Origin: Gemmatimonadota bacterium
GTDB taxonomy: Bacteria; Latescibacterota; UBA2968; UBA8231
Direction of reading: 5' to 3'
DNA length: 64,000 nucleotides
Assembly (NCBI GenBank): GCA_018660835.1
Contig: JABJJN010000103.1
Coordinates: 62,001-126,000, forward strand
Shown piece by piece: positions 2,308-53,357 of the stretch (position 1 is the stretch's first letter; each line of letters begins with the position of its first letter). The position numbers and the translations under genes were made by a program. Below the pieces are notes generated by a model. The model was not told the origin of the DNA, did not search any database, and saw nothing but the letters and a program-made list of their open reading frames with translations.

Positions 2308-3149
2308 GCGCCCTCCAGACCAACGCCCCCATGCTCTACGAGATGCACATGCACACCCCCATGTGTCATCATGCCTTTGGCGAGCCCGAGGACTATGCCC
2401 AGGTTGCTGAGCAAAGAGGCTTGAAGGGCATTGTCGTCACCTGCCATAACCCGACGAACGACGGCTGGTCACCGACAGTGCGCATGAGTGTCGACGAATT
2501 CGGTGAGTATGTGGATCTCGTTGATCAAGCAGCGCAGGCGTGGAGGGGGCGGGTAGATGTACGGCTTGGGCTCGAGAGCGACTATGTCCCCGGAATGGAG
2601 CCATGGCTTGAAGAGTTGCACACCATGGCGCCCCTGAATCATGTACTGGGTTCAGTGCACCCTCATTTACCGCAATACAAAGAGCGCTTTCATCTCGGTG
2701 ACATCGAACAGTTTCAGCGCACGTATTTCGAACACCTGGCACTGGCCGCCGAGAGTGGACTCTTCGATACGTTGGGGCATCCCGACCTGATCAAGAACAT
2801 CGAGCCAGAGGCATATGATCTGCCACGATTGATGGACACGATCTGCGCTGCACTGGACCGCATCGCCACAGCAGGTACGGCGATGGAATTGAATACGTCG
2901 GGGCTGAATAAGGTGGTCCCCGAGATGAATCCGGGTCCTGAGATTCTGCGTGAGATGTATGAACGTGGGATCCCCGTGGTCATCGGTGCCGATGCCCATA
3001 AACCGGAACGTGTCGCCGCTGACTTTGTGCAGGCCCTCGATACGCTGAGTGCGGCAGGCTACTCAGTGGTGAGCAACTTCCTCGACCGCAAGCGCGTGGA
3101 ACTACCCATCGACGCGGTCCGTGCATCACTCGAGGGCCACCAGGCCTAG
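2304..3149 (+). CDS. PHP-domain phosphoesterase (HisJ/HisK-type histidinol-phosphatase-like)
   Basis: 281 residues from a TTG that overlaps the VOC stop and has a GGGGGA ribosome site just upstream; the alternative ATG at 2331 has no such site. The N-terminal HMHTPMCHHA motif (His15, His17) and the C-terminal GADAHKPERV motif are the metal ligands of the PHP family; the spacing, the long GSVHPH segment and the GHPDLIK motif match HisK-type histidinol-phosphatases. Whether it really makes histidinol is uncertain, because no his gene lies nearby and PHP proteins have diverse substrates. Its TAG stop shares a CTAG with the stop of the convergent GH2 gene. Confidence 0.8.
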   Translation: MSALQTNAPMLYEMHMHTPMCHHAFGEPEDYAQVAEQRGLKGIVVTCHNPTNDGWSPTVRMSVDEFGEYVDLVDQAAQAWRGRVDVRLGLESDYVPGMEPWLEELHTMAPLNHVLGSVHPHLPQYKERFHLGDIEQFQRTYFEHLALAAESGLFDTLGHPDLIKNIEPEAYDLPRLMDTICAALDRIATAGTAMELNTSGLNKVVPEMNPGPEILREMYERGIPVVIGADAHKPERVAADFVQALDTLSAAGYSVVSNFLDRKRVELPIDAVRASLEGHQA

Positions 3150-5209
3150 GGCAGCTCCAGTTGCTCACACTGCACATGTTCGTAACCAGGCGGTGCCACC
3201 ACAGGCTGACAGATCGCTTCCACATCGATCCACGCATCACCGCATTCGAAGCGGTATCGTCCGGGTTCTGGTAAGACAAACCAGCTCGTCCCTGCATCAT
3301 CGGCCTGCACACCGTAGGCTGATAGTCCTTGTCCGTCCATGGCACGCACGAAGACCTGTGCCGCCGGAACCGGTATGCCGGCGTGCATCACTCTGATGAG
3401 AACCTCCGGAACGCGAGTCTCACTGAGGGGCCCCACGTCGCGACCCGTCCAACGACGAAATAGATCCCGCGACCAGCGACGGGTGGCTGTCGGTTGTGAG
3501 ATGGGTTGCGAAGGATCACACCAGTTGAGCAGAAGCGCTGCCTTGCCCCACGCTTGCTGCGAGCCTGCACCGAATGGATCGATGCGGGCATCGGCGCCAC
3601 TCTGCGACGGCCAGTGGATGTCCAGATCCAGTGCGGCGCTCAGCATCCCGGGTACCTGTCGGGAAAACACGCTATAGTCCATATCCGCCAGATAGAAGGT
3701 CTGCAGCCCGTGCACCTTGAGATCTGGAATACGTAGCAGGAACTCCTCCCAGCCGTCCGTCAGCGTTGGCTCCTCGTCGTGGCCCCACTCGGCGCCGTCG
3801 AAGATCCCCGCCTCGCCGACGCGAATCGGTTTGGCAGGCAGTTCAGCTCGGATCGTTTCGATGGCCTCCTGGATCGTCGCCAGACCACTGAAGAGGCGGT
3901 AACAGTCGATGAGATCGATCAACTCCTTATCAGCCGTGTGGGGCTCAAAGGTGACCTCCGCAATGCGTGTTTGATCAAGCTCTTTGACCTTCCTTAGCAG
4001 CGGCACGCAGAAGTCGGGGTCACGCGCATCGGTGATGTCCCAGAACAGGATGGATGGATGGTTTCGCGAGCGCCTGATCCAGTGGTCAGCCACAGTCAGG
4101 TGCGTCGCCATGATCAAGGCCAGTTCGGCTGCAGTCGTCTCTCCCCGCGGTACCTGCCCCGTGCCGACACAGAAGTTGGCGCCAACGACGAAGACGCCCA
4201 TCTCGTCGGCCACATCGTACAGGACCTGGGGTGGATCGTATCGGTGGTGTTCAACAATGCTGATGTTGGCTTCGGCGAGTTCCTGAAACTTCCTCGTCAG
4301 CCACTGCCGCTCGTAGACATAGGGCAACGTATGATCCCCCCACGGCATGAGCTTGTGTCCATTGAGCAGCAGTTGATCACCCTCGGCCCAGATCTCTCGG
4401 AAACCGAAACGCGTCGTCGATTCGATGTTGCCCATCGTCGCTCGCAGGAAGTACAGCACCGGCTCACCATAGGGTGGTCTGCCCCAGAGGACCGGATCAT
4501 CCCAGGACGCCTCCACAACAATGTCCTGCATCGTTTCAGCCTCGACATCGACCTGGCATGCGGGCAGCGACAATGTCAGTTCGCCGTTTCGCTCCACGCG
4601 GCATCTCAGCGTCTGCTTGATGGCTGCTCGAGTCTCGTTGATCACCCTCGCCTCGACGCGAATCCTCTGGTCTCGCACCGAGGTGATCACGTGTACATCC
4701 TCGATACGGAGATCAGACCTGCGTGTGAGCCACACGTCAGACTCGATGCCCACCGTCGATGGGCTCGTGAACCAGAACAGCGTATCCAGGGCCTGCTGGG
4801 TGGCCTCGCCAACCACCCAGGAGTCTGGGTGGGCATAGCTACCGGTGCAGTTGTGGGTATAGATCATCAACTCGTGATCGTGTCCGGGCCGCAGCAACGC
4901 GCTCAGATCCACGCGCCAGGGCAGACGCATGTGGTGGTGATCCGCCACGGCTTCGCCGTCGAGGTAGAGTCGCCCATAGTGGCGCACACGTTCCAAATCC
5001 AATCCGAGCCCCTGCACATCCCAGTGTGCGGGAATACGCAAGGTCGTGCGATACCAGCCCGATTCTGGCGGATCCTCCTCGAATTCACGCGATCGATGTG
5101 GTACCCGCATGGGCAACCAACCGGTTGCGGGTGGGTTCCCGTCGGCGCCGGGTGTAAACTCCCATACACCGTTGAGCAGCAGGCGATCCATGTCTGTTGA
5201 GTCGACCAT
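3146..5209 (-). CDS. Glycoside hydrolase family 2-like protein with altered catalytic motif
   Basis: 687 residues from the ATG at 5209, chosen because GGAGAGGG lies just upstream; the frame stays open for 20 codons before it without a better start. It shows the GH2 order: N-terminal sugar-binding jelly roll (WLPMRVPHR, GWYRTTLRIP), an immunoglobulin-like sandwich, and a TIM barrel (HHRYDPPQVLYDVADEMGVFV). The barrel strand that normally reads WxxGNE reads HPSILFWDITDARD, so the canonical acid/base Asn-Glu is missing, while RVGEAGIFDG could hold the nucleophile Glu. No signal peptide is visible. It may be a divergent beta-glycosidase, or a binding protein that has lost activity. Convergent with the PHP gene and divergent from the AAC(3)-like gene across 41 bases. 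Confidence 0.82.
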   Translation of the reverse strand: MVDSTDMDRLLLNGVWEFTPGADGNPPATGWLPMRVPHRSREFEEDPPESGWYRTTLRIPAHWDVQGLGLDLERVRHYGRLYLDGEAVADHHHMRLPWRVDLSALLRPGHDHELMIYTHNCTGSYAHPDSWVVGEATQQALDTLFWFTSPSTVGIESDVWLTRRSDLRIEDVHVITSVRDQRIRVEARVINETRAAIKQTLRCRVERNGELTLSLPACQVDVEAETMQDIVVEASWDDPVLWGRPPYGEPVLYFLRATMGNIESTTRFGFREIWAEGDQLLLNGHKLMPWGDHTLPYVYERQWLTRKFQELAEANISIVEHHRYDPPQVLYDVADEMGVFVVGANFCVGTGQVPRGETTAAELALIMATHLTVADHWIRRSRNHPSILFWDITDARDPDFCVPLLRKVKELDQTRIAEVTFEPHTADKELIDLIDCYRLFSGLATIQEAIETIRAELPAKPIRVGEAGIFDGAEWGHDEEPTLTDGWEEFLLRIPDLKVHGLQTFYLADMDYSVFSRQVPGMLSAALDLDIHWPSQSGADARIDPFGAGSQQAWGKAALLLNWCDPSQPISQPTATRRWSRDLFRRWTGRDVGPLSETRVPEVLIRVMHAGIPVPAAQVFVRAMDGQGLSAYGVQADDAGTSWFVLPEPGRYRFECGDAWIDVEAICQPVVAPPGYEHVQCEQLELP

Positions 5210-5250
5210 CGAGCCCTCTCCTGTTTTCTGATCATAGCAAGGATAGTGGA

Positions 5251-5955
5251 GTGCATACGCGAGCAACACTTCATCACGATCTGCGTCAGTTGGGTGTAGT
5301 GGACGCTGACACGCTCTTCGTGCACTCCTCGTTCCGGAGTCTCGGCCACGTCGAGGGGGGTGCCAACACGGTCATCGGCGCCCTGCATGATGCGGTCGGA
5401 CTGGACGGTCGCGTTCTGATGCCCTCCTTCAATCTGGTCGGCTCCCAGGATGAGCGCGCTGCTCGTTGGGATGTTGAACAGACTCCGTCCTCAGTAGGTT
5501 GGCTTACAGAGGCCTTTCGCCAGATGCCCGAAACGGCCCGCTCAGACCACTATTCCCATTCCGTCGCTGCCCAGGGTTGCGATGCGCCGAGCCTCGTGTC
5601 GGGCCATCGGTCTCAGACTGGCATGTCGTCACCTTGGGATCGTGAGCCTTGGGGCAAGACCTATGGCGACAGGTCGCCCATGATGCAAGCGTTGGACCTG
5701 AATGTGAAAATCCTGATGGTGGGCGTCGACTACGAGTCTTCCACCTATGTCCACCTCGTCGAGGTCATGTGGTGGGCCGCAAGACTCGCTCATGATCCAA
5801 CGTCGACGTTTCGGGGTCTGGACAGGGTCGAAATGGGGCGAATGTGGGACCAGGAGGGCGTCCTGGCTCGAGGCCTGGTGGGCGACGCAGGCTGCCGCCT
5901 GTTCGCGGCGCGGACCTACGTCGATCAATTGCTGGCCTGGGCTGAACGGTTGTGA
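5251..5955 (+). CDS. AAC(3)-family aminoglycoside N-acetyltransferase-like protein
   Basis: 234 residues from a GTG with AAGGA seven bases upstream; the frame extends further upstream but that part overlaps the divergent GH2 gene. Features of the family (Antibiotic_NAT) are LFVHSSFRSLG near the N-terminus, GRVLMPSFN, HSVAAQG, and YVHLVEV near the C-terminus with the conserved His and Glu. Characterised members move an acetyl group from acetyl-CoA to an amine; many environmental homologues sit in biosynthetic or sugar-modifying contexts and are not resistance determinants. It is slightly shorter than typical AAC(3) enzymes (about 260-280 residues). A possible hairpin lies 30 bases after the stop. 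Confidence 0.8.
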   Translation: MHTRATLHHDLRQLGVVDADTLFVHSSFRSLGHVEGGANTVIGALHDAVGLDGRVLMPSFNLVGSQDERAARWDVEQTPSSVGWLTEAFRQMPETARSDHYSHSVAAQGCDAPSLVSGHRSQTGMSSPWDREPWGKTYGDRSPMMQALDLNVKILMVGVDYESSTYVHLVEVMWWAARLAHDPTSTFRGLDRVEMGRMWDQEGVLARGLVGDAGCRLFAARTYVDQLLAWAERL

Positions 5956-6144
5956 GCAGAAACACCTTTTGCAGGCTGGCGTAACTGTAGTGTTTTCAAT
6001 GGTCTCAACCGCTCGAGACTACAGCCGCTTGACCGTCAACACCGCGAACCGCTTCGTAACATCATGATTGGTATCGGACCACGATCCTACATCAGTGGAC
6101 CACAGGCCCGAATCCTGCCGACACCACCTCCAGGAATAGACAAT

Positions 6145-9100
6145 ATGCGTACGGCCCTTCCCCCGCGTCTGTGTGTGTGGTTGATAGTCAGTTCACTGGC
6201 GCTGGCCTCCGTCAGCCCACTGATGGCGCGCTCTCATCGTGTCGATCAGGTTCCACACGGTCAGACCCTCGGTTGTGCCACATGTCATGTGAATCCCTCT
6301 GGAGGTGGCTCACGCAATGCCTTTGGCACGGATGTAGAGAGTTTCCTGACGTCTGTCGACGCCAGTGGAGATGTCCAGTGGAGTGATCTGCTGGCGACGA
6401 TCGATTCCGATGGCGATGGCTTCACCAATGGCCAGGAATTGGGCGATTGGGATGGACTCTGGTCTACAGGCGACGCAAATCCAGAACAATCACCGACCGC
6501 ACCGGGCAATGCGGGAAGCTTGCCCGCCTTTGAGGGCGAGTGGACTGATGTTGGATTCGTCGACGTGATCGACGCCAAAGGATTCGGCGGCGAAGGTTTT
6601 CGTGTCGTTGTCGAGACCAACATCGAAAGTGCCGGTGGCGATCTGACACTGGGAGAACTGGTTGAGGGCGAGGGAATTCAGGTCAAGGGCGAGTTGAGTC
6701 GTGATTACAGCACCGTGTATGCGAGATCAATTTTCGTCGGTGGCGGCACGGAGCCTGAAGAAGGGGTCATCGATCTGATCATTCGCGGTTTGGATGGTAG
6801 CGACATCATCATCGGTGACTTTGTTCGCCCCTTCCTGACCAATACCGAATTCGTCAGCGAAGCCAGCGGTCAGACTCAGGCCATCGCCGACTTCCAGTCA
6901 GGCGAACTGGTGAAGTTCACCGTCGGCATGTACGACATTGGCCACTTTGTCACCCGCCTCGCCCGCGAACCGGACCTGTCCGACGACGTCCGTGAAACCT
7001 TCGACCAGGATGTCGAACTCGCTTTCATGCAGGATGCAGACGGGATTCTGCGCACCTTCGGGCCCACGTTCGATGTGACAGGCACCGACTTCTTCGACGA
7101 ATTCGGCGCAGCCATCGATCCGGCGGCGATCCCCTTCGAAGCCGAAATCGTCATCGAGTTCACTGATCCATCGAGTGGACAGATTCCTACCGCCCATCGT
7201 GTGGATATTCTGGCCCATGGTGCCGAGTGGCCGACGGATCCCGATGTATTGCTGCAGCGTTTCGACGCCGTCCACAGTGGCGTGGAGATGACGACCTTTG
7301 ATCCGCATCTGCGGCGGCTCGCTCGCGATGCAGATCTCGTTTTCGGCGATGGATCAGCGGCGAACCGCAGCGACGTAGTCAGCGGTTTCGTTCGCCTCGT
7401 CGTCAACCACCCGCCCCACGGTCGCTTGTATTATGGCGATGTCATCAGTGCCCTCACCGTCGATCCACCCGACTACACTGGACCCGGAGCGCCAGCGCAA
7501 GAGCCGACCGAGTTCTTCAGCGAAGAGATACGTCACGATTTCTTCGATCAGGTGGAAGACGATATGGTCCGCTTCGGCGGCGCCACAGTCGTCGTCGAAG
7601 GAGATGTCATCGATGGCGATAGCAACTCGATCGGCATCGGCGGTCTGCAGATCGGCAACTGGGTAGCCATCGAAGCGACCCCTTCTGTCGATGTGAATCT
7701 CTTCTATGCGTCGCTCATTCAGCCTGACCCACCGGTTGATTATAACCCCGAATCGGGAACGGGCTTCTGGGCGGAAATTCGTTGGATCGATGGCGATGAA
7801 CTGGGTGTTGGCGATCCCTGGAAGCAAGTCTGGAGTGGAGCCGACTACATCGATGCCGCGACAGGGCTGGTATTGTCTCTGACAGATTTTTCTTCGGGTG
7901 ATCTCGTCGAATTTGTCGTGGCACAGACAGACGTGGGTGAGCGGATCGTGAGTATCAGCCGCAATCCTGATTTCGACCCGGGTCCCGACACCGAAATTCG
8001 CGACCAGCATGTTGGTTTCGTGGACGACAAGGATCGTCTGTGGGACATTGGCAATGAATTCGTCATCGATCCTGGCGCCGCCGTTACCGACACCAATGGC
8101 AATACCATTGCCGTCGGCTCCATAGCCCCCCAGGCATGGATTGCCGTGGAGTGGTCCGACCAGGACCAGGGCCTGGCCGTGGCCATTGAGGTTCTACCCG
8201 TCGACATGGGCTCGAGTAACCCAAATGTCGGCCTGTTTCACTTTGACAGAGTCGAGGGCGATCGACTCTTCACTTTCGCACCCTATCCACGTCCCATCGC
8301 CCGGGAGGCGGTGATCGAATTCGACGACGGCACACCAGCGAGCATCGCCAGTATTCCCACCGGACCGGTGCGGCTCTTTGTCACTGTGCCGGGCTACAAC
8401 TTTCCCCATCTCGGCGACTTCATCGAACACGTGATTATCGATCCCGTCGATTTCGGCACAGGTGGCGAGCCAGCGCCTCAGCCGACGGAGTTCTTCGGCG
8501 AGTATGAGGGCATCGCCACCATCGCTTTTGCCGATGAGGGAAAAGAACAGATCGGCTTCGGCGAACAGCGTGTGGTCATCGAGGGAGACATTGTCGATGA
8601 AGATGGCGTGGCGATCTCCATCGATGATCTGCGCCCGGGCGAAACCATCTTCATCGAAGCAACCGCCTCCATCGATCCGAGCCTGTTCTACGCCCACCAC
8701 GTGCAGCAGGATCCAAACTGGGAGGGTGAAGCACAGGGCACCAGTTTCCGCGCCTTCCTCGTCGCCATCGATGGTCCCGACCTGATCGTCAGTGAACACC
8801 CCAGACCGTATTTGGACGACATCGAGGTTTTCGACATCGAGACGGGCCAGTCCTTGACTCTGGGAGATCTACAGTCGGGGGATCAGGTAGAGTTTCTGAT
8901 TGCCCAGACGGATCTGGGCGACTACGTGGCCGCCCTCACGCGAGTTGCAAGTCACGATCTGCCCGAGCCACGCGTGACAGATATCGACTTTGCCTTTGTT
9001 CGCGACGGTGCAGCATGGCTTACCGGTCCAGTATGGACACTTGCGGCTGGGGTGACCGTCATCGATGAGAATGGCAATTCGATCGATGTCAACTCCATCA

Positions 9101-12100
9101 CTTCGGAGACACAGATTCTGATCACACTCGATCCGAATACGGACGAGGTCGTGCATTTGGAGACGGTCCCAGAGGGGATCTACCTGGGTGATGAAGATTC
9201 ATTTCAGGATCGCTTCGATCGCGTCGGAGCAGATCAACTCCACACCTTCACCTTGACCGGCTGGCCTATCGTCCGTGAGGCGGACATCACCTTCGATGAT
9301 GGGTCGGTCGCGACGCTTGCCGACGTCGGCCCGGGGCCGAATCGTGTTCTGTTCGCACCCCGTGATGCCCTGTTCCCTTTCATTGGCGAGGTAATCGAGT
9401 GGATCATCATCGATCCACTCGACTTTGGCTCCAATGGCGAGCCTCCACCACAACCGACGGAGTTCTTTGGCGAGTATTCGAACTTTGGTGTCCTTGATGT
9501 CATCGATCCCATCAAAGGCATCGGTCTTGATCGCTTAAGAATTGTCGTCGGTGGCGACATATCCGATCCGGATGGGAATCTGTATTCCCTCGACGAACTG
9601 AATGACGGTGAAGGCCTGTTTGTCGAAGGTCAAGTGAATGCCACGCGCGATGTGTTCTTTGCTCATACACTGCTGCGGAATGCCAATCACCTCCCAGATA
9701 CGCAGACCTCGACATGGGGTACCGTCCGTGGCGTGGAGGGAGACGACATCTTCATAGGCGACGGCGTTCGCGTGCTGCTTGATGACGTCGAATTCATCAA
9801 TGGTTCTACAGGGGAGATTCTGAGTCTCGACGATCTACAGTTGGGTGATTTCGTCGAAGCCACAGTAGTTCAAACGGATGTCGGCGACTACGTCAGTCGA
9901 GTTGTTGTAAATCCAGAGACTGAGTTTGCTGAAGAAGGTCCCATCCACACGCAAGATGTGGACGTCGCCTGGGTTGAAAACGATGTCACCGTGTGGACAC
10001 GTGGCCCCGACTTCGACATCTCCACGGCCGATGTCGTGGGTGTAGATGGCGCACCCGTCGATGCCGCTGGGATCGACTATGCTACGCCCCTGGCAATTCA
10101 CGTAGATCCCACCGTCGAGACACCGCAGTTGTTTGCCACTTTCGTCGAAGTACTCGAACCGGGGGTCTATCCCGAGGGCGAGAACGTCTGGTTTCAACAT
10201 TGGGACGGTCTGACAGATGACATCCTGCGAACGTTGGAACCTTTCCCACGCAATCTCGCCGCAGATGCAACAGTGATCTTCAACGACGACGCACCGGGGA
10301 CGGTGGCCGACATTCACGGTCCATTGCGGTTGACGATTCTTGGGCCGTCCGACAGGGAGACTGTGCTGCGCAATGAAGTGATCGTCGATGTCCTGCTCGA
10401 TCCGGTCGACTTCGGTGAAGGCAGCGAGGGAGGCGAAGAGGGCCCACCACCGCAACCCACAGAATACTTCGGTGAATGGTCAGGCATCGCCAGTCTCGAC
10501 ATCATCGACCCCATCAAGGGCATCGGCTTTGGCCGGGCCAGAGTCGTCGTCGAGGGTGACATCGTCGACCCTGCGGGCAATCTGTTGAGTCTCGATGATC
10601 TGCAAGCGGCAGATGGTGTGTTGATTCGTGGCGACAGAGCCAGCGACGAAGATGTCATCTATGCACGCAAGATCTTCGTCCATCCTGACGGTGTGGAAGA
10701 CACGCAGGACTCCTACGGCGGCACGGTACGCGAAGTGCTCGATGGCGAGATCATCATCGGCGACTGGGTGCGCCCTCTACTCGATGACATCGAAATCGCC
10801 GATGGGCAAACAGGAGAGTTGCTCAGTCTCGATGATCTGCAACCCGGAGCGATCGTGGACTACGTCATCGCTCATACGGATCTGGGTGACTATCTCGCCG
10901 CATTCGTCGTCAATCCGACGGATGTGGGAAACCTCGAACCTGAATTTCTGTATGAGGACACACAGTTAGCCTTCATCGATGGCGAGAATCTCGTATGGAC
11001 CTATGGACCCGACTTCGAGATAGGAGAAACGGAGTTCTTCGACGCCGCCGGTGAGCCCATCGATCCGACGACCATCGACTATGCAGCGCCTTTGGCGATT
11101 CTCGTGGATCCCGAGGCAGCCAGTGATCAGTTACGGGCAACGCGGGTCGAAGTACTCGAACCAGGGCAGCAATTAGCAGATCCAGAGATCTGGTGGATGC
11201 AGAATTTTGATGGCTACGACAATGGTGTGCTGCGGACCCTCAACCCTTACCCCCTGGCGCTGACACGTGACGCAGACGTCATCTTTGCCAATGGCGAGCC
11301 GGCGACACGAGACGATATCCCAGGTGGGCCTGTACGCTTGACGATCAAGCGACCTCCCGTCTGGGAAGTCATCTTGTGGCGAGATGTCATCGTCGGCGTC
11401 GAGATTGATCCAGCAGACTTCGGCACCGGCAGTGGTGACGGCGGTGAAACCTCAGAGCCCACCGAATTCTTCGGCGAGTGGGATGGTGTCGCCAGCATCG
11501 ACTACATCGACCCGGAGGCGAGAGATGTCGGATTCGGTCGAATCCAATTGATCGTGGAAGGGGAGATCTTCGGCGCCGATGGCGAACCGATGACCGTTGA
11601 CCGACTCAACGTTGATGATGCGATCTATGTGGAGGCGCAGCCATCGATTGATCCGGAAGTGTTCTATGCCAGTGTGATCCATGTCGATCCAGACTTCGAG
11701 ATCATCACCGACGATGGCACATTCCATGCCTTTGTGCGGTCCGTGGAGGACGGCTCCCTGTATGTGGGTGATCTCATCCGCCCGCTTTTGTCTGATGCCG
11801 AACTCTATGACGCCGTAACTGATGATGCCTTCCCATTGAGCGATCTGCGACAGGGCGACATCGTCGAGTATTCAATCGCCCACACGGATGTAGGCGATTT
11901 TGTCTCCTATATCGGCCGCGGTCCGGATATCGAATTTCCTGCGGACGGCTGGGATGCCGATGTCGACCTGGCCTTCCTCGACGAGGACGGGTTTGTCTGG
12001 CTCGCGGGGGCTACGTACGAACTGGCATCTCTCGTGGATGTGTTCGACCTCGAGGGCAATCGCGTCGGACAATCGCTGCTTGAGGCGGGTACGTGGATCG

Positions 12101-13569
12101 GCGTTTTCAATGATCCAGACAATCCCAATGTGGCGACACGCATCGAAATGGTGGAGGAAAACGTCTTCCCAGACGAACCCGACGCACAAATCTGGCGCTT
12201 CGACCGCATCGAAGACGGTGAGCTGTACACATTCGATGCCTTCCTTCGACCTCTGGTTCGTGAAGTCGATCTGAGTTTCGCGGACGGCTCGCAGGCTACG
12301 ATAGATGATCTTGTGGCAGGACCGATTCACCTATCTGTCCTGCATCCACGCCGCGACTTCCCTCCCATCGGCGATGTAATCGATGCGATCGTGATTGGCG
12401 GAATCGATAGCGAACCACTACTCGACATCGAGCAGTTCCTCTCGGAAGGCGAGGATTTTGACGACAGTGGCGATGTGGATGAGGCGGACTACCAGGTTTA
12501 CCTGTGGCTGGCGGGTCCTGATGCTGAAGACATCAACGGTGACGGTGTGAGTGGCTACATCGACTTCGAGGCATGGCTGTTAGGTGCTGGTACGGGCACA
12601 GATGGCGAACTTGCCGATAGCCCGATCACGATCGATTTCGATCCCGAGGAAGGTGATCAGCAGGTTCACCTTGCGCGCAATGCAAGACCGGGACGCGAGT
12701 ACGAACTGCAACTCCATCTCATCGACGGACCCGCGATTCAGGGTTGGAGCGTAACGATCCAATACGATCCGACGCAGCTACAATTCGTATCCAGAAGTTT
12801 TGGCGTCAGCGATTTCATCCCTGGTGGTCTGCCTCTGGTTCGTGTCGGTGCGGGTGAACTGGGCGTCGGCACGTCCATCCTGCTCGGCGACAGCGCCGGT
12901 GAAGGGGCAGCATGGGTCGGCACGTTGCGTTTTGTCACCCTTGAGGAATTCAGCGGCGAGACGGCGATCGAGATTGTTCGTTATGGTTTTCGCCCCGTTG
13001 ATGGGGAGCAGTTGTTCCTCGCTGTGAGTTCCACTGCGACCATCAGTGACGAAGTGACTGGAGATCTGGCGGCTGACTTCGACGGCGACGGTGTCGTCGA
13101 CTTTCCCGATTTCTTCCTCTTTGCCGCGGCATTCTGGACTGAGAATGAGACCTACGACCTGAATGGCGATGGTTTCATCAACTTCTCAGATTTCTTCCTG
13201 TTTTCCGATGCTTTCGGCCAGCAACTGCCAGCATTCAAGCTCCTGGCTCTGGCGCAGGAGATGATTGGCTTACCGAAGGAAGCTGAGCTGAATGCCAACT
13301 TCCCGAACCCCTTCAACGCCAGCACAACGATCCCCCTGCTGTTGCCACAACCTGGACATGTGGATCTGGAGATCTATGACGTACTCGGACAGCGTGTCAG
13401 GCATCTGGTCAGTGAGACGCTCGCAGCGGGGGTCCATCATCGGGTCTGGGACGGACGCGATGAGATGGGACGTTATGTCGCGGGGGGTGTGTATTTCGCC
13501 CGTCTCGTAACGACACCTCACTTCGGTGAGGGTCGCGTGCGCGTCCGCAAGCTCATGCTGACCGAGTAG
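6145..13569 (+). CDS. 2474-residue secreted multi-repeat protein with CxxCH, dockerin/cohesin-like modules and sorting tail
   Basis: The start at 6145 has AGGA upstream and gives a signal peptide ending about LMARS. Order: CxxCH motif C44-A-T-C47-H48, a possible haem site; a calcium-loop DSDGDGFTNGQE (87-98); six tandem units of about 324-334 residues, from residue 129 to about 2092, each boundary marked by PTEFFGE or a variant (residues 454, 780, 1104, 1438, 1772); a dockerin-like pair (DINGDGVSG); a cohesin-like beta-sandwich; a second dockerin-like pair (DFDGDGVVDF, DLNGDGFINF); and a final NFPNPFN domain of the T9SS type A/FlgD-like sorting kind. Each unit looks like four small beta-rich subdomains resembling DUF5666. 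Likely exported and surface-attached or released; function unknown. The coding sequence is intact, with no frameshift seen. Confidence 0.9.
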   Translation: MRTALPPRLCVWLIVSSLALASVSPLMARSHRVDQVPHGQTLGCATCHVNPSGGGSRNAFGTDVESFLTSVDASGDVQWSDLLATIDSDGDGFTNGQELGDWDGLWSTGDANPEQSPTAPGNAGSLPAFEGEWTDVGFVDVIDAKGFGGEGFRVVVETNIESAGGDLTLGELVEGEGIQVKGELSRDYSTVYARSIFVGGGTEPEEGVIDLIIRGLDGSDIIIGDFVRPFLTNTEFVSEASGQTQAIADFQSGELVKFTVGMYDIGHFVTRLAREPDLSDDVRETFDQDVELAFMQDADGILRTFGPTFDVTGTDFFDEFGAAIDPAAIPFEAEIVIEFTDPSSGQIPTAHRVDILAHGAEWPTDPDVLLQRFDAVHSGVEMTTFDPHLRRLARDADLVFGDGSAANRSDVVSGFVRLVVNHPPHGRLYYGDVISALTVDPPDYTGPGAPAQEPTEFFSEEIRHDFFDQVEDDMVRFGGATVVVEGDVIDGDSNSIGIGGLQIGNWVAIEATPSVDVNLFYASLIQPDPPVDYNPESGTGFWAEIRWIDGDELGVGDPWKQVWSGADYIDAATGLVLSLTDFSSGDLVEFVVAQTDVGERIVSISRNPDFDPGPDTEIRDQHVGFVDDKDRLWDIGNEFVIDPGAAVTDTNGNTIAVGSIAPQAWIAVEWSDQDQGLAVAIEVLPVDMGSSNPNVGLFHFDRVEGDRLFTFAPYPRPIAREAVIEFDDGTPASIASIPTGPVRLFVTVPGYNFPHLGDFIEHVIIDPVDFGTGGEPAPQPTEFFGEYEGIATIAFADEGKEQIGFGEQRVVIEGDIVDEDGVAISIDDLRPGETIFIEATASIDPSLFYAHHVQQDPNWEGEAQGTSFRAFLVAIDGPDLIVSEHPRPYLDDIEVFDIETGQSLTLGDLQSGDQVEFLIAQTDLGDYVAALTRVASHDLPEPRVTDIDFAFVRDGAAWLTGPVWTLAAGVTVIDENGNSIDVNSITSETQILITLDPNTDEVVHLETVPEGIYLGDEDSFQDRFDRVGADQLHTFTLTGWPIVREADITFDDGSVATLADVGPGPNRVLFAPRDALFPFIGEVIEWIIIDPLDFGSNGEPPPQPTEFFGEYSNFGVLDVIDPIKGIGLDRLRIVVGGDISDPDGNLYSLDELNDGEGLFVEGQVNATRDVFFAHTLLRNANHLPDTQTSTWGTVRGVEGDDIFIGDGVRVLLDDVEFINGSTGEILSLDDLQLGDFVEATVVQTDVGDYVSRVVVNPETEFAEEGPIHTQDVDVAWVENDVTVWTRGPDFDISTADVVGVDGAPVDAAGIDYATPLAIHVDPTVETPQLFATFVEVLEPGVYPEGENVWFQHWDGLTDDILRTLEPFPRNLAADATVIFNDDAPGTVADIHGPLRLTILGPSDRETVLRNEVIVDVLLDPVDFGEGSEGGEEGPPPQPTEYFGEWSGIASLDIIDPIKGIGFGRARVVVEGDIVDPAGNLLSLDDLQAADGVLIRGDRASDEDVIYARKIFVHPDGVEDTQDSYGGTVREVLDGEIIIGDWVRPLLDDIEIADGQTGELLSLDDLQPGAIVDYVIAHTDLGDYLAAFVVNPTDVGNLEPEFLYEDTQLAFIDGENLVWTYGPDFEIGETEFFDAAGEPIDPTTIDYAAPLAILVDPEAASDQLRATRVEVLEPGQQLADPEIWWMQNFDGYDNGVLRTLNPYPLALTRDADVIFANGEPATRDDIPGGPVRLTIKRPPVWEVILWRDVIVGVEIDPADFGTGSGDGGETSEPTEFFGEWDGVASIDYIDPEARDVGFGRIQLIVEGEIFGADGEPMTVDRLNVDDAIYVEAQPSIDPEVFYASVIHVDPDFEIITDDGTFHAFVRSVEDGSLYVGDLIRPLLSDAELYDAVTDDAFPLSDLRQGDIVEYSIAHTDVGDFVSYIGRGPDIEFPADGWDADVDLAFLDEDGFVWLAGATYELASLVDVFDLEGNRVGQSLLEAGTWIGVFNDPDNPNVATRIEMVEENVFPDEPDAQIWRFDRIEDGELYTFDAFLRPLVREVDLSFADGSQATIDDLVAGPIHLSVLHPRRDFPPIGDVIDAIVIGGIDSEPLLDIEQFLSEGEDFDDSGDVDEADYQVYLWLAGPDAEDINGDGVSGYIDFEAWLLGAGTGTDGELADSPITIDFDPEEGDQQVHLARNARPGREYELQLHLIDGPAIQGWSVTIQYDPTQLQFVSRSFGVSDFIPGGLPLVRVGAGELGVGTSILLGDSAGEGAAWVGTLRFVTLEEFSGETAIEIVRYGFRPVDGEQLFLAVSSTATISDEVTGDLAADFDGDGVVDFPDFFLFAAAFWTENETYDLNGDGFINFSDFFLFSDAFGQQLPAFKLLALAQEMIGLPKEAELNANFPNPFNASTTIPLLLPQPGHVDLEIYDVLGQRVRHLVSETLAAGVHHRVWDGRDEMGRYVAGGVYFARLVTTPHFGEGRVRVRKLMLTE
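6529..12420 (+). repeat. Six in-frame ~1-kb coding repeats
   Basis: Unit starts estimated from the conserved PTEFFGE boundary fall at about 6529, 7504, 8482, 9454, 10456 and 11458, so units are about 972-1002 bases. They are clearly related at protein level (recurring FFGE, ID/VDP, GD.VR.L, DVGDYVS, ATxxDI patterns) but diverged in DNA, with units 4 and 5 looking most alike. This points to old duplications rather than recent copying. Confidence 0.85.
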
Positions 13570-13583
13570 CCTCCCCCCTTTGA

Positions 13584-13621
13584 GCGTCGACGGTGGCCCT
13601 TCACTCAGCCATCGTCGACGC
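13584..13621 (+). terminator. Hairpin after the giant gene, no U-tract
   Basis: GCGTCGACGGTGG pairs with CCATCGTCGACGC (13 pairs, one G-U) around a 12-base loop, 15 bases after the stop and directly before the AAGGA of the next gene. There is no T-run, so it may be an attenuator, an RNA-stabilising stem or a non-canonical terminator. Confidence 0.5.
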
Positions 13622-13636
13622 CAAGGAACGACACCC

Positions 13637-15025
13637 ATGGGTAGCTTCCCCCTCCTCTTCGCAGGTGCACTGGTCTTCGTCGTTGGCATCTTGCGCCCGG
13701 CGCCAATCCATGCGACACCTGCAGCGACGTCCGAGCCAACAGACTCGCTCCCTGCCGACTCGTATCTCACTCTCGTGATTGGGGCCCCGGAGGCTCGGCG
13801 GCAAGCGTTGGCGCAGATCGATTCTCAGTGGCAGCCCTATGCCACGGCTCTGTTGCTGGAAACGATGCGCCTGGCGCGCGACCCCAGGTTACCAGGACAG
13901 ATTGTGAAGCTTCTTGAGAAACACACGGCGCAGAACTTTGGCTTTGAGGTGGAGGCCTGGTGGCAGTGGGTGTGGACCCACAAGACCGAACTGCCTCCGG
14001 CCTACGCGCAGATGAAGAGCCGCCTCTACTCCGTCATCGATCATCGTTTCCGTCGATATTTCAACGCTCGATGGCTGCCGTCTGCCCGCATCCGCCTTGA
14101 TGAAGTTCGTTGGGGTGGTGTCGAACAGGACGGTATCCCCCCCCTTCGTGATCCATCGATGACGACGGCGGCCGATGCGAATCGATGGCTTGATGAAGAG
14201 GATGTGGTGTTTGGTCTGGTTCACAATGGCGAGGCACGCGCTTATCCACAACGGATCCTGGCGTGGCACGAATTGTTCACCGATACGATCGCCGAGGAAC
14301 CCATTGCGGGTGTGTACTGCACTCTGTGTGGTACGATGATCGTCTACGGAACTCGCGTAGACAGCGTCGGACACCTGCTGGGAACCAGTGGCTTCCTCTT
14401 TCGTTCGAACAAACTGATGTACGACGCGCAGACCCAATCCCTGTGGAGCACATTGTGGGGCGAACCTGTGTTCGGCCCACTCGCTGACAGTGGCATCCGC
14501 TTGCCACGATATCCTGTGGTCACCACCACGTGGTCAGCCTGGCGCGAGCGCCATCCGCAGACACAGGTCCTCTCCCTGCAGACGGGTCACAGTCGGGACT
14601 ATGGTGAAGGTGTTGCCTACCGGGAATACTTCGATACAGAGGATCTGATGTTCCAGATTCCTCAACACGACAAGCGGCTGCGCAACAAGGACGAGATCCT
14701 CGGATTGCTGTCGGCGGATGGCCAACCCCTGGCGATTGCCGATCGCTATCTGCGCAAAAACCCTGTCCTGCATGAACACCTGGGTCAGATGCCGATCGTC
14801 ATTGTCACCGACGCATCTGGCGCGCATCGTGTGTATGCCGCCGGTGCAACGACATTCGACCGTCTTGATGAAGACCGTCTGCTGGACACGGATGGACGCG
14901 CCTGGCGGCTCGAGGAGGACGCCCTCTACCTGAAAGGTGAAGAGCCGTTGCCACGACTCCCGGCACACCGCGCCTTCTGGTTCGGGTGGTATTCAGCTTT
15001 CGCGCATACACGACTGGTGCACTGA
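13637..15025 (+). CDS. Exported DUF3179 protein
   Basis: 462 residues from the ATG at 13637, with AAGGA ten bases upstream, giving an N-terminal signal or anchor helix (FPLLFAGALVFVVGIL). The DUF3179 core is clear: AGVYCTLCGTMIVYG with a CxxC pair, GTSGFLFRSNKLMYD, and QTQSLWSTLWGEPVFGPL. The family is widespread in environmental bacteria and archaea; its function is not established, though the conserved CxxC and its exported location suggest metal or redox chemistry. The N-terminal ~150 residues are alpha-helical and may be a separate domain. It follows the giant gene on the same strand, separated only by a hairpin, and is convergent with the symporter. Confidence 0.87.
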   Translation: MGSFPLLFAGALVFVVGILRPAPIHATPAATSEPTDSLPADSYLTLVIGAPEARRQALAQIDSQWQPYATALLLETMRLARDPRLPGQIVKLLEKHTAQNFGFEVEAWWQWVWTHKTELPPAYAQMKSRLYSVIDHRFRRYFNARWLPSARIRLDEVRWGGVEQDGIPPLRDPSMTTAADANRWLDEEDVVFGLVHNGEARAYPQRILAWHELFTDTIAEEPIAGVYCTLCGTMIVYGTRVDSVGHLLGTSGFLFRSNKLMYDAQTQSLWSTLWGEPVFGPLADSGIRLPRYPVVTTTWSAWRERHPQTQVLSLQTGHSRDYGEGVAYREYFDTEDLMFQIPQHDKRLRNKDEILGLLSADGQPLAIADRYLRKNPVLHEHLGQMPIVIVTDASGAHRVYAAGATTFDRLDEDRLLDTDGRAWRLEEDALYLKGEEPLPRLPAHRAFWFGWYSAFAHTRLVH

Positions 15026-15052
15026 CTCAAGGCCATCGCCTCCCCAGTAGAT

Positions 15053-17350
15053 CTACTTGTCGTGCTCGACCTCGTCTACGTGAGCCACGTCGTCGGCGCT
15101 CACGTGGCCGACAACGCGTCCATCATCGAGCATATTCTCTTCCTTTTCTTCCAGCCGCTGGAACAGACGTTTCAGATCGATCGTCCCACCGATAGAGAAC
15201 CAGACAGTCGATACGACGGCGATGATTCCGGGCACAACGAGGTTGTAGATCTTGAACCATTCCGCCCACCATGTATCGGGCCAGGGAGTGATCGCATTCC
15301 AGATGGTCAGCACGACGAAGCTGCCAAAACCCCAGAGCATGGAATAGAGAAAGACGGACCAGGCGAGCACACGATCACCCTTGGTGTATTCGGAGTTGAT
15401 GCCAAGAAACGTGCGATACCAGGTGCGCCAGGTGATCGCGTCATGGGTGACTTCCACTTCCCCTTCACGCCGGTAGATTCCTCTGTGCAGCATGCGTTCC
15501 ATGTTGAAGGTTTCCTTCTCCGTCAGCAGTGAAACACCGACGTAGAGGACGACACCGATCACCATGGCAATGAAGTAGATCTCCTGAGAGTTGATCGGAA
15601 ATTTATCGGGCACTACGCGCCACTCGACATACGGTTCGAGGGGGTGCGACATGCCTTCGATGACCCTACGCACACCAGAAAGTCTGGCCGTCTCCTCCAA
15701 CCACGGGTAGATGTGTTCCACCCACGTCTTTTGCGCGATGATGCCACCGACAGCCAGCGTTGATCCCGCCGTCAGCGCGGCGAAGGCCCCCGCCGCGGTA
15801 CCACGTCGCCAGTAAAGCCCACCGACAATGCATGGACCTGCCCCACCGAGCCAGATCGCACCGGTGATCGCGAAGAACATGAGGATGTAATCGACCTGGG
15901 CGAAGAACAGCGAAAAGAAGAAGGCAAAGCCCGCCACACCAGCTATGATCAGGCGCAACAATTTCAGTTGCTGTTTGGCTGTAAAAGGCCGTCCCCTGAT
16001 CGGCAGCAGAATATCCTGAACGATGATGCTGCCCCAGGAGTGCATATAGGTCGTGTCGGTGCTGATCAGCAGAAAAATACACAGAGCGCAGAAAACACCG
16101 GTGACGCCAATCGGCAGGATGTGGCGCAAGGCGATCGGAACGCGCATCTGGTCATGGATAGCGCCGAAGGTTTGCCCCGAGCTCTTGTCCTGTGACGCCA
16201 GCGCTTCCTTGACCATGTCTCGCAGCGGCTCGTTCTCGTCCTTGTCCTCGAAGTGCTCCTCACTCGACCACTGTGCCAGATCGGCAGAGACCTCACCTGT
16301 ATCGAGATAGTGTCGCAACTCGCGTTTGACACCATCGAACTCGGGGTCTTTTGCCACATCGTTGACGGCCTTCCACGTCAGTTCCTCACGAGCCTCGGAC
16401 GCCTGGTCGGCGAAGCGATCATTGTTCATGAGTGTGTAGCCTGCCACAGCGAGAAGGACGATCATCATCGTCTGGAAGCCCGCGCGCCACGTGCCTAAGA
16501 CGGCGCCCATCTTCTGCTCATGTGCATTTACAGCGGCCGCATTGTAGCCCTGCGTGCCAGACCAGGCCATCCGATTGAACACGGTGCTGAAGAGCCCGAC
16601 GAGGATGTAGAACATGTTGAAATCGCGCAGCTTGTCGATATCGAAGGGATTCAACATGCTCTCTTCAGCTGGCCGATCCAACAGGGTCGGCGCCATATCA
16701 CCACTCCAGGAGAATTTCACCAGAATGGCGATCACGACGATGGCATAGAGCGGATAGCTAAGGATGCCGAGAATACAGTCGGTCACCATGATGGTGATCT
16801 GACCGCCCAGACTGACAACGATGACCGCCGCCGACAGAAATAGTGCCATCACCAATGCAAAGGTGGGAAAGACCCAGCCAAAGAGGCTGGTCTCCAGCGG
16901 TAAGTCGCAGTAATAGATGAGGAAGCGGGCGCCCACTGCTGGGAAGATGGCATAGTTCACTACACCAGACAGCGACTGCAGCGACGCGGCGTAGATGCGG
17001 AAACCGCGACTGTAGCGCATCTCAAAAAACTGCCCCATCGTCATGGCACGCGTTTCTCGATAGCGGTAGATGCAGTAGCCTGTGAGGGTCATCAACATGC
17101 CCACCGGCACATACAGCTGATTCCAGAAGGAGTAGGCAAAGCCGGAATTGTAGTAGGCTTCGAAGAGGGCCACGACGCTGATGAGGCCCATACCAGCTTC
17201 ACCGCTGGCGACGGCAACGACGTAGCGTCCTGCGACACGACCAGCGGCGAGAAAATCAGAAACACTTCTGACGAAGTGCTGCGCCTTCATGGCGACGTAG
17301 AAGACGAGGACGAGAGGGAGGGCGACGATCAGCCAGTCTACTATATGCAA
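15053..17350 (-). CDS. Sodium:solute symporter (SSS family) with a polar insertion
   Basis: 765 residues from a TTG with GGA five bases upstream. The hydrophobic segments follow the SSS/LeuT-fold order, beginning WLIVALPLVLVFYVAMK and including the family-like GEAGMGLISVV and ISTDTTYMHSWGSI segments. Between two core helices sits a polar, charged stretch of about 100 residues (roughly nucleotides 16110-16435), and the C-terminus adds further helices and an acidic tail. It probably moves a small organic solute into the cell with Na+; which one cannot be read from sequence. Transcribed away from the purF operon across 219 bases, where I see no convincing regulatory motif. Confidence 0.87.
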   Translation of the reverse strand: MHIVDWLIVALPLVLVFYVAMKAQHFVRSVSDFLAAGRVAGRYVVAVASGEAGMGLISVVALFEAYYNSGFAYSFWNQLYVPVGMLMTLTGYCIYRYRETRAMTMGQFFEMRYSRGFRIYAASLQSLSGVVNYAIFPAVGARFLIYYCDLPLETSLFGWVFPTFALVMALFLSAAVIVVSLGGQITIMVTDCILGILSYPLYAIVVIAILVKFSWSGDMAPTLLDRPAEESMLNPFDIDKLRDFNMFYILVGLFSTVFNRMAWSGTQGYNAAAVNAHEQKMGAVLGTWRAGFQTMMIVLLAVAGYTLMNNDRFADQASEAREELTWKAVNDVAKDPEFDGVKRELRHYLDTGEVSADLAQWSSEEHFEDKDENEPLRDMVKEALASQDKSSGQTFGAIHDQMRVPIALRHILPIGVTGVFCALCIFLLISTDTTYMHSWGSIIVQDILLPIRGRPFTAKQQLKLLRLIIAGVAGFAFFFSLFFAQVDYILMFFAITGAIWLGGAGPCIVGGLYWRRGTAAGAFAALTAGSTLAVGGIIAQKTWVEHIYPWLEETARLSGVRRVIEGMSHPLEPYVEWRVVPDKFPINSQEIYFIAMVIGVVLYVGVSLLTEKETFNMERMLHRGIYRREGEVEVTHDAITWRTWYRTFLGINSEYTKGDRVLAWSVFLYSMLWGFGSFVVLTIWNAITPWPDTWWAEWFKIYNLVVPGIIAVVSTVWFSIGGTIDLKRLFQRLEEKEENMLDDGRVVGHVSADDVAHVDEVEHDK

Positions 17351-51872: not shown

Positions 51873-53357
51873 ATGAATCCTTCGCGTCGTCTGTCGCTCT
51901 TTCTACTGATGAGCATTTGCTGCGCCGCTTCGGCAGTCTGGCCACAGTCACAGAGAGTCCTCATACCGGCGGGCACGGGAATCAGCACCGACTCTGCCGT
52001 CACCATCATATCGACGATCGGTGAGCCGTTGATCGGCGTTCAGGGCGGTGCTCAACTTCAGGGGATCGGTTTCTGGGGAGTGTCGGCAGGCGGCAACATC
52101 GTGCTACCACCGATCCTGTCAGTCGACACCGAAAGCCTCGACTTCGGTCTCGGTTCGCTGGGCGATGAGAGTGTGGTGGCTATCGCCATCAGCAACAACG
52201 GTGGGCAGCAACTCGTCATCACCGGACTGACGGCGAATCTCGACCAGATCTCCACCGGCGTGGATACACTGCGTATCGGCGGAGGCGACACGAGCAGTAT
52301 CGACATACGGCTCGAACGTGATCACATCGGTCGTCTCATGGGCCTTCTGCAGCTGCGCAGCAATGACCCTTCCCAACCAGCCTTTGAGATCGCTCTTGCG
52401 GGCACGACGGGTTGGGCACGGGGGCCACGAATCGCCGTCGAGGGTCCCGTGCTACTTGGAGCCACCAGTATCGGCGACACCAGTATCCACGAGGTCCGGA
52501 TCACCAATCTCGGCGATGCCTCATTGAGCCTCGACGCTGTGGCGAGTGGGAACGGGTTCCGTGCTGTCACGAGCGGCCTGACCCTGACAGCGGGGGCCAG
52601 TGGACAGGTCATCATCACCTACACGCCAGGCGGAGAAGGATCGGCGCTGGGGCTGCTTACTTTGACATCCAATGACCCCGATCGTCCGCGCGTGGAGCTG
52701 GAGCTGCAGGCCTTTGGCGGTGACATGAACTCACCATTGCTGCTCGACTTTATTGTCGGGCCCGGAGATCAGGGCTTACGCACGCTGGGCAATGTTGTGG
52801 CGGGTCTACAACATACGATCGAGTTGGTGCTCGTTGATGCGCAGCCCCTTCGCGGTTGGTCTGCGCAGCTGACATTCGACCCTGCTGCGGTAGGCTACGT
52901 GCCTGGCAGTTTCGAAACAAGTGACTTTCTCGCGGGTCTCGTTCCCCTCACGATTGAGTTGCCCGGTCAACTTACGGTGGGGGGGACGGCGTTGAGTGAC
53001 GATGCAGGAGCAAGTGGCCCCGCCACACTCGGCACCGTTCGATTCCGCATTCTTGAGGGCTTCGACTCTCAGACCGAGATCGTGTTGACGGAGGTGGTTT
53101 TCGATCGATTGAACATGGAGGACGAGGTCCACACCACCTCCTCTCCCATTGTACTGCGCAGCGACGCCATCGAACTGGAACTACCCGGAGATTTTGACGG
53201 ATCAGCCCATGTGAATTTTGACGACTTCTTCCTCTTTATCGGTGCCTTCGCCACGGCCGAGGCACAGTTCGATCTGAATGGAGATGGCTTCGTCAATTTC
53301 CGGGATTTCTTCCTCTTCGCCGATTTCTTTGGCCTCGCCGTATTGATCAGCCTGTGA
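51873..53357 (+). CDS. Secreted protein: choice-of-anchor-like, cohesin-like and dockerin-like modules
   Basis: 494 residues with a signal peptide (LSLFLLMSICCAASAVWPQ). Its first part has ASPM-SPD-2-Hydin-like repeats (LDFGLGSLGDESVVAIAISNN; EVRITNLGDASLSL). Then a cohesin-like sandwich (GWSAQLTFDPAAVGYVPGSF, SDFLAGLV, LGTVRFRIL) clearly related to the one in the 2474-residue protein, and a dockerin-like pair (GDFDGSAHVNFDDFFLF, DLNGDGFVNFRDFFLF). It lacks the NFPNPFN tail. It starts nine bases after the fibre gene and is surely co-transcribed with it. Confidence 0.8.
   Translation: MNPSRRLSLFLLMSICCAASAVWPQSQRVLIPAGTGISTDSAVTIISTIGEPLIGVQGGAQLQGIGFWGVSAGGNIVLPPILSVDTESLDFGLGSLGDESVVAIAISNNGGQQLVITGLTANLDQISTGVDTLRIGGGDTSSIDIRLERDHIGRLMGLLQLRSNDPSQPAFEIALAGTTGWARGPRIAVEGPVLLGATSIGDTSIHEVRITNLGDASLSLDAVASGNGFRAVTSGLTLTAGASGQVIITYTPGGEGSALGLLTLTSNDPDRPRVELELQAFGGDMNSPLLLDFIVGPGDQGLRTLGNVVAGLQHTIELVLVDAQPLRGWSAQLTFDPAAVGYVPGSFETSDFLAGLVPLTIELPGQLTVGGTALSDDAGASGPATLGTVRFRILEGFDSQTEIVLTEVVFDRLNMEDEVHTTSSPIVLRSDAIELELPGDFDGSAHVNFDDFFLFIGAFATAEAQFDLNGDGFVNFRDFFLFADFFGLAVLISL

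Follow-up and report, generated by a model that had tools for sequence, protein, structure and literature searches.

What kind of protein is encoded by an open frame of 2474 residues, and where would it act? The question arises at a locus of the Latescibacterota in which a sequence-only reading had described a large exported protein built on six tandem units. We analysed the locus within a window of 64,000 nt (the whole stretch of DNA under study), which comes from contig C53 of a 7.09 Mb assembly of 105 contigs that is 93.13% complete and has an estimated contamination of 7.98%. The literature drawn on consisted of excerpts of PMC8542988, PMC9312934, PMC2762978 and PMC9012536.

The reading frame and its six tandem units

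The number of contigs and the contamination of the assembly would be in keeping with a frame artefact, or with the read-through of a decayed gene. However, translation gave a single 7.4-kb frame free of internal stop codons (Table 1), with a GC content of 0.676, 0.407 and 0.635 at the three codon positions; the six units lie in register and similarly designed homologues exist in other genomes, which makes an artefact exceedingly improbable. An ATG at 6064 is also in frame upstream of the start at 6145, and the latter is supported because the homologous frame of a congener (G001) has just four residues before the same methionine. Scanning for promoters found none at the locus, and terminator matches stayed at the level of shuffled sequences. 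Net charge is −14.1 per 100 residues, compared with −7.3 to −12.6 in six frames of five relatives and −1.5 to −7.1 in eleven hand-picked other frames of the window. The only cysteines of the whole chain are at positions 10 (inside the signal peptide), 44 and 47.

Table 1. Features of the locus, in positions of the window
Feature	Position	Strand	Basis
Whole gene, 2474 aa	6145..13569	+	open frame; start backed by congener G001
Signal peptide, residues 1-28	6145..6228	+	judged by eye, end inferred
Temptin_C domain, residues 33-121	6241..6507	+	PF24784, E 4.3e-12, 46.8 bits (cut-off 27)
CATCH (CxxCH), residues 44-48, within temptin domain	6274..6288	+	motif
EF-hand-like loop DSDGDGFTNGQE, within temptin domain	6403..6438	+	sequence, domain alignment
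Unit 1	6520..7503	+	profile, alignment; modelled with four OB-like quarters
Unit 2	7504..8481	+	profile, alignment
Unit 3	8482..9453	+	profile, alignment
Unit 4	9454..10455	+	profile, alignment
Unit 5	10456..11457	+	profile, alignment; quarter B (10702-10923) modelled alone
Unit 6	11458..12471	+	profile, alignment
First dockerin-like stretch, overlapping the end of unit 6 as cut	12463..12603	+	sequence by eye
Cohesin-like domain, residues 2158-2306	12616..13062	+	profile, relatives
Second dockerin-like stretch, residues 2310-2361	13072..13227	+	weak matches to Dockerin_1, 2y3n_B
Type IX sorting tail / FlgD Ig-like	13300..13569	+	TIGR04183 above cut-off; FlgD_ig
DUF3179 gene, downstream of the 2474-aa frame	13580..15025	+	PF11376, E 2.4e-75

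The six tandem units stood up to closer analysis. A unit profile recovered six copies (residues 127-453, 454-779, 780-1103, 1104-1432, 1438-1767 and 1772-2107), each scoring 425-463 bits; as the copies themselves went into the profile, the scores show register and not independent homology. Recut, the units are 324-338 residues long and not 324-334 as first given, and in place of a regular PTEFFGE boundary the motif P[TQ]E[FY]F.E opens five of the six, unit 1 beginning with LPAFEGE. Their alignment gave pairwise identities of 28-48%, with units 4 and 5 most alike. Searches against known families, enzymes included, returned one-member or chance-level matches only. No Pfam family matched the units beyond chance-level scores (three families hit one unit each at E 0.016-0.3, with none in common, the best being Sial-lect-inser at E 0.016), and the PDB search with the unit profile gave a chance match alone (3etc_A, E 0.79).

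Unit 1 was modelled with AlphaFold2 from the six-row alignment. The best model (pLDDT 83, pTM 0.71; mean pLDDT of the five models 83.0, 82.1, 67.1, 64.8 and 59.6, the last three being much poorer) falls into four blocks, in each of which five to seven strands are listed and a short HHH turn precedes the final two, and this prediction supports four OB-like barrels in unit 1. The earlier assignment of four beta-rich subdomains to every unit thus agrees with the model of unit 1; for units 2-6 the layout would follow by alignment, and about 24 barrels appear to be present in total, a figure extrapolated from that one model. The four-fold repeat rests on the model because sequence shows no clear likeness among the quarters: comparison of quarter profiles gave a probability of 57 for A/C, 43 for A/B over 17 columns, and no more than 1.2 for any of the remaining four pairs.

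A Foldseek search with the entire unit superposed poorly overall and had nothing at E ≤ 0.001, so we modelled a single quarter by itself, namely quarter B of unit 5 with nine rows. It reached a pLDDT of 89.9, with the five models between 86.6 and 89.9, and its best Foldseek matches were PilY2 (TM 0.65, rmsd 3.6 Å), DBC1 (8ez6) and CusF (TM 0.69, rmsd 1.9 Å), followed by cold-shock proteins. The probabilities of these three matches were 0.99-1.00 but their E-values 0.059-0.18, so that none reached E ≤ 0.001. We read the modelled quarter as having the OB fold. The repeat is a tandem unit, of apparently four OB barrels, that is absent from Pfam.

The likeness to CusF and PilY2 is one of modelled fold (TM 0.64-0.69 by query length), whereas identity to the quarter is 11-18% and the E-values are not significant. 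CusF nonetheless suggests barrels that would act as a sponge for copper or other soft metals, and a weak CusF_Ec match was also found in the protein (E 0.46). Yet no column of the six-unit alignment has His, Met or Cys in more than two units, and the 1982 residues of the units include 8 Met and 31 His and no Cys, which renders a metal sponge very unlikely. The units hold 397 acidic and 94 basic residues (net charge −303), and through the acidic ones they could instead bind Ca or Mg.

The barrels had furthermore been likened to DUF5666 (PF18914), which is a small barrel. The OB-like quarter, as modelled, agrees with this; DUF5666 itself, however, matches neither any unit nor the whole protein. 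The match is found only in a relative (G011), at E 8.6e-5 and 23.2 bits, below the gathering cut-off of 27. This relative matches the unit profile twice (E 4.3e-4 and 4.7e-8), and the first of these matches overlaps its DUF5666 region. A literature search found no paper with DUF5666 in its title or abstract.

The N-terminal temptin domain

The CxxCH and the calcium loop, previously read as separate features, are both present and turned out to be parts of one known domain, Temptin_C, the loop having the form DxDGDG. The domain profile also matched calmodulin loops in the PDB (best E 0.0062). Temptin_C was above its cut-off in 44 of the 64 genomes of the phylum, and CxxCH was present in all 28 non-redundant temptin domains cut by the loop motif from loci L001-L068, most of them retrieved by means of the Temptin_C model. 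In a collection of named organisms, 79 of 80 fetched loci carried CxxCH, the exception matching in its second half only; these are the best 80 of 100 confirmed among at least 583 candidate stretches, and the sample leans towards CxxCH, since its members were found with a DxDGDG scan but confirmed on the whole domain, CxxCH included. CxxCH-bearing temptin-like domains were also seen in archaeal records (L175, L177, L178 and L189; Methanolobus, Methanosarcinaceae and Methanosalsum).

The earlier reading had offered haem as a possibility. Could the CxxCH carry a c-type haem at the outer tip of the protein and serve electron transfer or sensing? The frequency of the motif in both sets argues for it, and so does a cytochrome c assembly family matched in the genome (three matches above cut-off), although that family is common and also exceeds its cut-off in 8 of the 14 control genomes. 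Against it, 13 aligned temptin domains have no invariant Met and no invariant His besides that of CxxCH, and hence no conserved second axial ligand; no cytochrome occurs among the best 60 of 164 PDB matches to the domain profile, and a single CxxCH would not build a haem chain. Animal temptin, the Aplysia pheromone protein, is moreover described with two disulfides in an excerpt of PMC2762978, whereas the bacterial and archaeal forms carry CxxCH; the two disulfides do not occur here, Cys 44 and 47 being alone outside the signal peptide. Haem on the temptin domain is possible, the CxxCH motif being what points to it, but it was not established, and a redox outpost of this kind seems quite unlikely.

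Ten longer temptin proteins were hand-picked from the 80 named loci, and because temptin was the first domain found in all ten, it seems to act as a cap for proteins that are exported. Their other domains included CHRD (three proteins), Ig or PKD arrays, MopE repeats and dockerin (two proteins), with one protein lacking a clear partner; two of the ten carried type IX tails, one of them below cut-off. In the present case the cap would sit on a chain of 2474 residues.

The C-terminal end and type IX export

The C-terminal end had been read as a cohesin-like module flanked by two dockerin-like ones and followed by a sorting tail with the motif NFPNPFN. The Pfam cohesin family (PF00963) has no match in the protein at E ≤ 1, and the protein is not among the nine matches of this family in its own genome, six of which are above cut-off. 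A 17-row profile of the cohesin-like domain matched the ScaB cohesin (3l8q_A) at E 3.3e-10 and gave 13 matches in the genome, including the protein itself; the domain shares homology with stretches of G002 and G019 in which Pfam cohesin is above cut-off, and its identity is 52-57% to the nearest two relatives and 21-37% to the remaining fourteen rows. By these profile comparisons the domain is a cohesin relative, as had been proposed. The dockerins fared less well: the second stretch gave weak matches, below cut-off for Dockerin_1 (PF00404; E 0.065, 13.9 bits against 22.9) and dockerin_GC (21.7 against 29 bits), and matched a PDB dockerin (2y3n_B) at E 0.0036, while the first had no match in Pfam, NCBIfam or the PDB. 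Another cohesin-like domain was found in the window at 52731-53153 (E 1.3e-33), within a 494-aa frame at 51873-53357.

At 54-55% identity, the final 370 residues recur at the ends of two other proteins, one from the same genome (G000:C44) and one from G005 (G005:C191), and the bodies ahead of this shared end differ widely, with EF-hand-like repeats in the former and a dockerin-repeat-like body in the latter. On sequence grounds, these residues may form an exchangeable export-and-docking end. The C44 frame (L034, 2-2356) is cut by the contig start and contains many tandem CDLDGDG EF-hand-like repeats before the same C-terminal end.

A cohesin of the ScaB type calls to mind a cellulosome-like scaffoldin that gathers dockerin-bearing enzymes to break down polymers, and a GH2 gene lies in the neighbourhood. 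The protein shares with scaffoldins (ScaB and the scaffoldin-like protein of Ca. Stygibacter) a cohesin relative and an export end; unlike them, it has one cohesin only, flanked by a dockerin-like stretch on each side, and no carbohydrate-binding module was found by Pfam at E ≤ 1. The GH2 gene is on the opposite strand. We therefore hold a polymer-degrading scaffoldin to be rather doubtful. A literature search found no paper on Latescibacter* with cohesin plus dockerin, and 'latescibacteria' with 'dockerin' returned a fungal microbiome study.

The sorting tail and the export route, in turn, were borne out. TIGR04183 scored 24 bits against a cut-off of 23 (28.2 bits in the genome search), and FlgD_ig scored 28.9 bits against 27 in the same region. 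In type IX secretion, SprA carries cargo across the outer membrane, and PorU cuts off the C-terminal tail and attaches the protein to the surface. The genome encodes SprA (650.7 bits, cut-off 200) and PorU (2 of 51 matches above cut-off, both near full length, most others being tails only), together with TIGR04183 tails of which 96 of 99 matches are above cut-off, two of these only with neighbours in frame. From these three sets of matches we conclude that the type IX export route in this genome is real. SprA was above cut-off in 61 of the 64 genomes of the phylum, so that type IX secretion seems to be common to the phylum as a whole; a literature search for Latescibacter* with 'type IX secretion' found no paper. 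The protein is thus like type A cargo of this system (TIGR04183) in having the tail, a signal peptide recognized by eye, and PorU and SprA in its genome, and differs in that its body is an undescribed repeat.

Relatives of the units and the proposed surface stalk

A profile search of 100 genomes (its own among them, 36 of them outside the phylum) gave unit matches in six, that is, in 5 of the 99 other genomes. Matches were full or long in G002, G013 and G019 and partial in G011 and G036. In each of the first three, one unit is closer and another more distant, with partial matches besides; two units is a minimum, since contig ends truncate the genes of G002 and G013, and that of G019 is split between two contigs. 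In a tree of 12 rows, the six window units group as a single clade (96/100), whereas the branching of the relatives is weak; the expansion to six units therefore took place in the lineage of the window. Pfam detected Big_5 Ig-like domains in the relatives and none in the window protein. A whole-protein scan of genome contigs gave two stretches that matched the pattern, neither of which was confirmed. In G013, a 2123-aa frame with a sorting-tail motif (L029, 7137-13505; G013:C45) lies directly after the unit-bearing protein.

The congener G001 aligns to the window at 2328-6593 (74% identity) and 14958-17350 (79%) in stretches that are 90 bases apart, so that about 8.3 kb, comprising the stalk and most of the DUF3179 gene, are missing. 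A 205-residue frame of G001 (L033, 9634-10248; G001:C60) joins the temptin domain in frame to the last ~50 residues of DUF3179. As the more distant G019 has temptin and units on one contig, G001 appears to have lost the stalk body by deletion; this is one genome, and the gap could be an assembly fault or reflect a gain in the genome of the window. Most likely, the stalk is accessory and dispensable.

A functional link between DUF3179 and temptin was considered and dropped: in tables compared by eye the two families adjoin in the window only, and elsewhere lie on different contigs or far apart, many assemblies being fragmented and the G001 fusion falling below the search threshold. Several DUF3179 matches contain an in-frame TGA (G000:C29, G000:C95, G012:C471, G042:C563 and others). 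An excerpt of PMC9312934 names DUF3179 among the selenoprotein families, with UxxC/T, and these genes may therefore encode selenoproteins.

We propose, as the moderately probable reading, that the protein is a type IX-secreted, acidic surface stalk of OB barrels that bears a temptin cap and, close to its anchor, a cohesin/dockerin joint. The Sec signal would bring the chain into the periplasm, SprA would pass it through the outer membrane, and PorU would remove the tail and fix the stalk to the surface. The ~24 OB-like barrels, with the charge of the units, would form a long acidic rod, probably stiffened by cations, which would keep the temptin domain, at the N-terminus, at a distance from the cell, and the cohesin and two dockerin-like stretches near the anchored end may link the stalk to cohesin/dockerin proteins of the same cell. 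The relatives show at least two diverged units; in this lineage one unit clade was amplified to six. A bolder reading, in which such proteins form a new class of stalk, a rod of OB quartets amplified in tandem, present a haem- or redox-active temptin outward, and are gained or lost by congeners through in-frame deletion of the entire body, with the cap fused to the end of the next gene, is highly improbable.

Taken together, these results describe a tandem repeat new to Pfam in a phylum for which no literature was found on type IX secretion or on cohesin plus dockerin. They also assign the CxxCH seen in many exported proteins of bacteria, and in some of archaea, to a family named after an animal pheromone, whose domain has ~90 residues. 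Finally, the stalk, present here and absent in a congener, offers a natural comparison.
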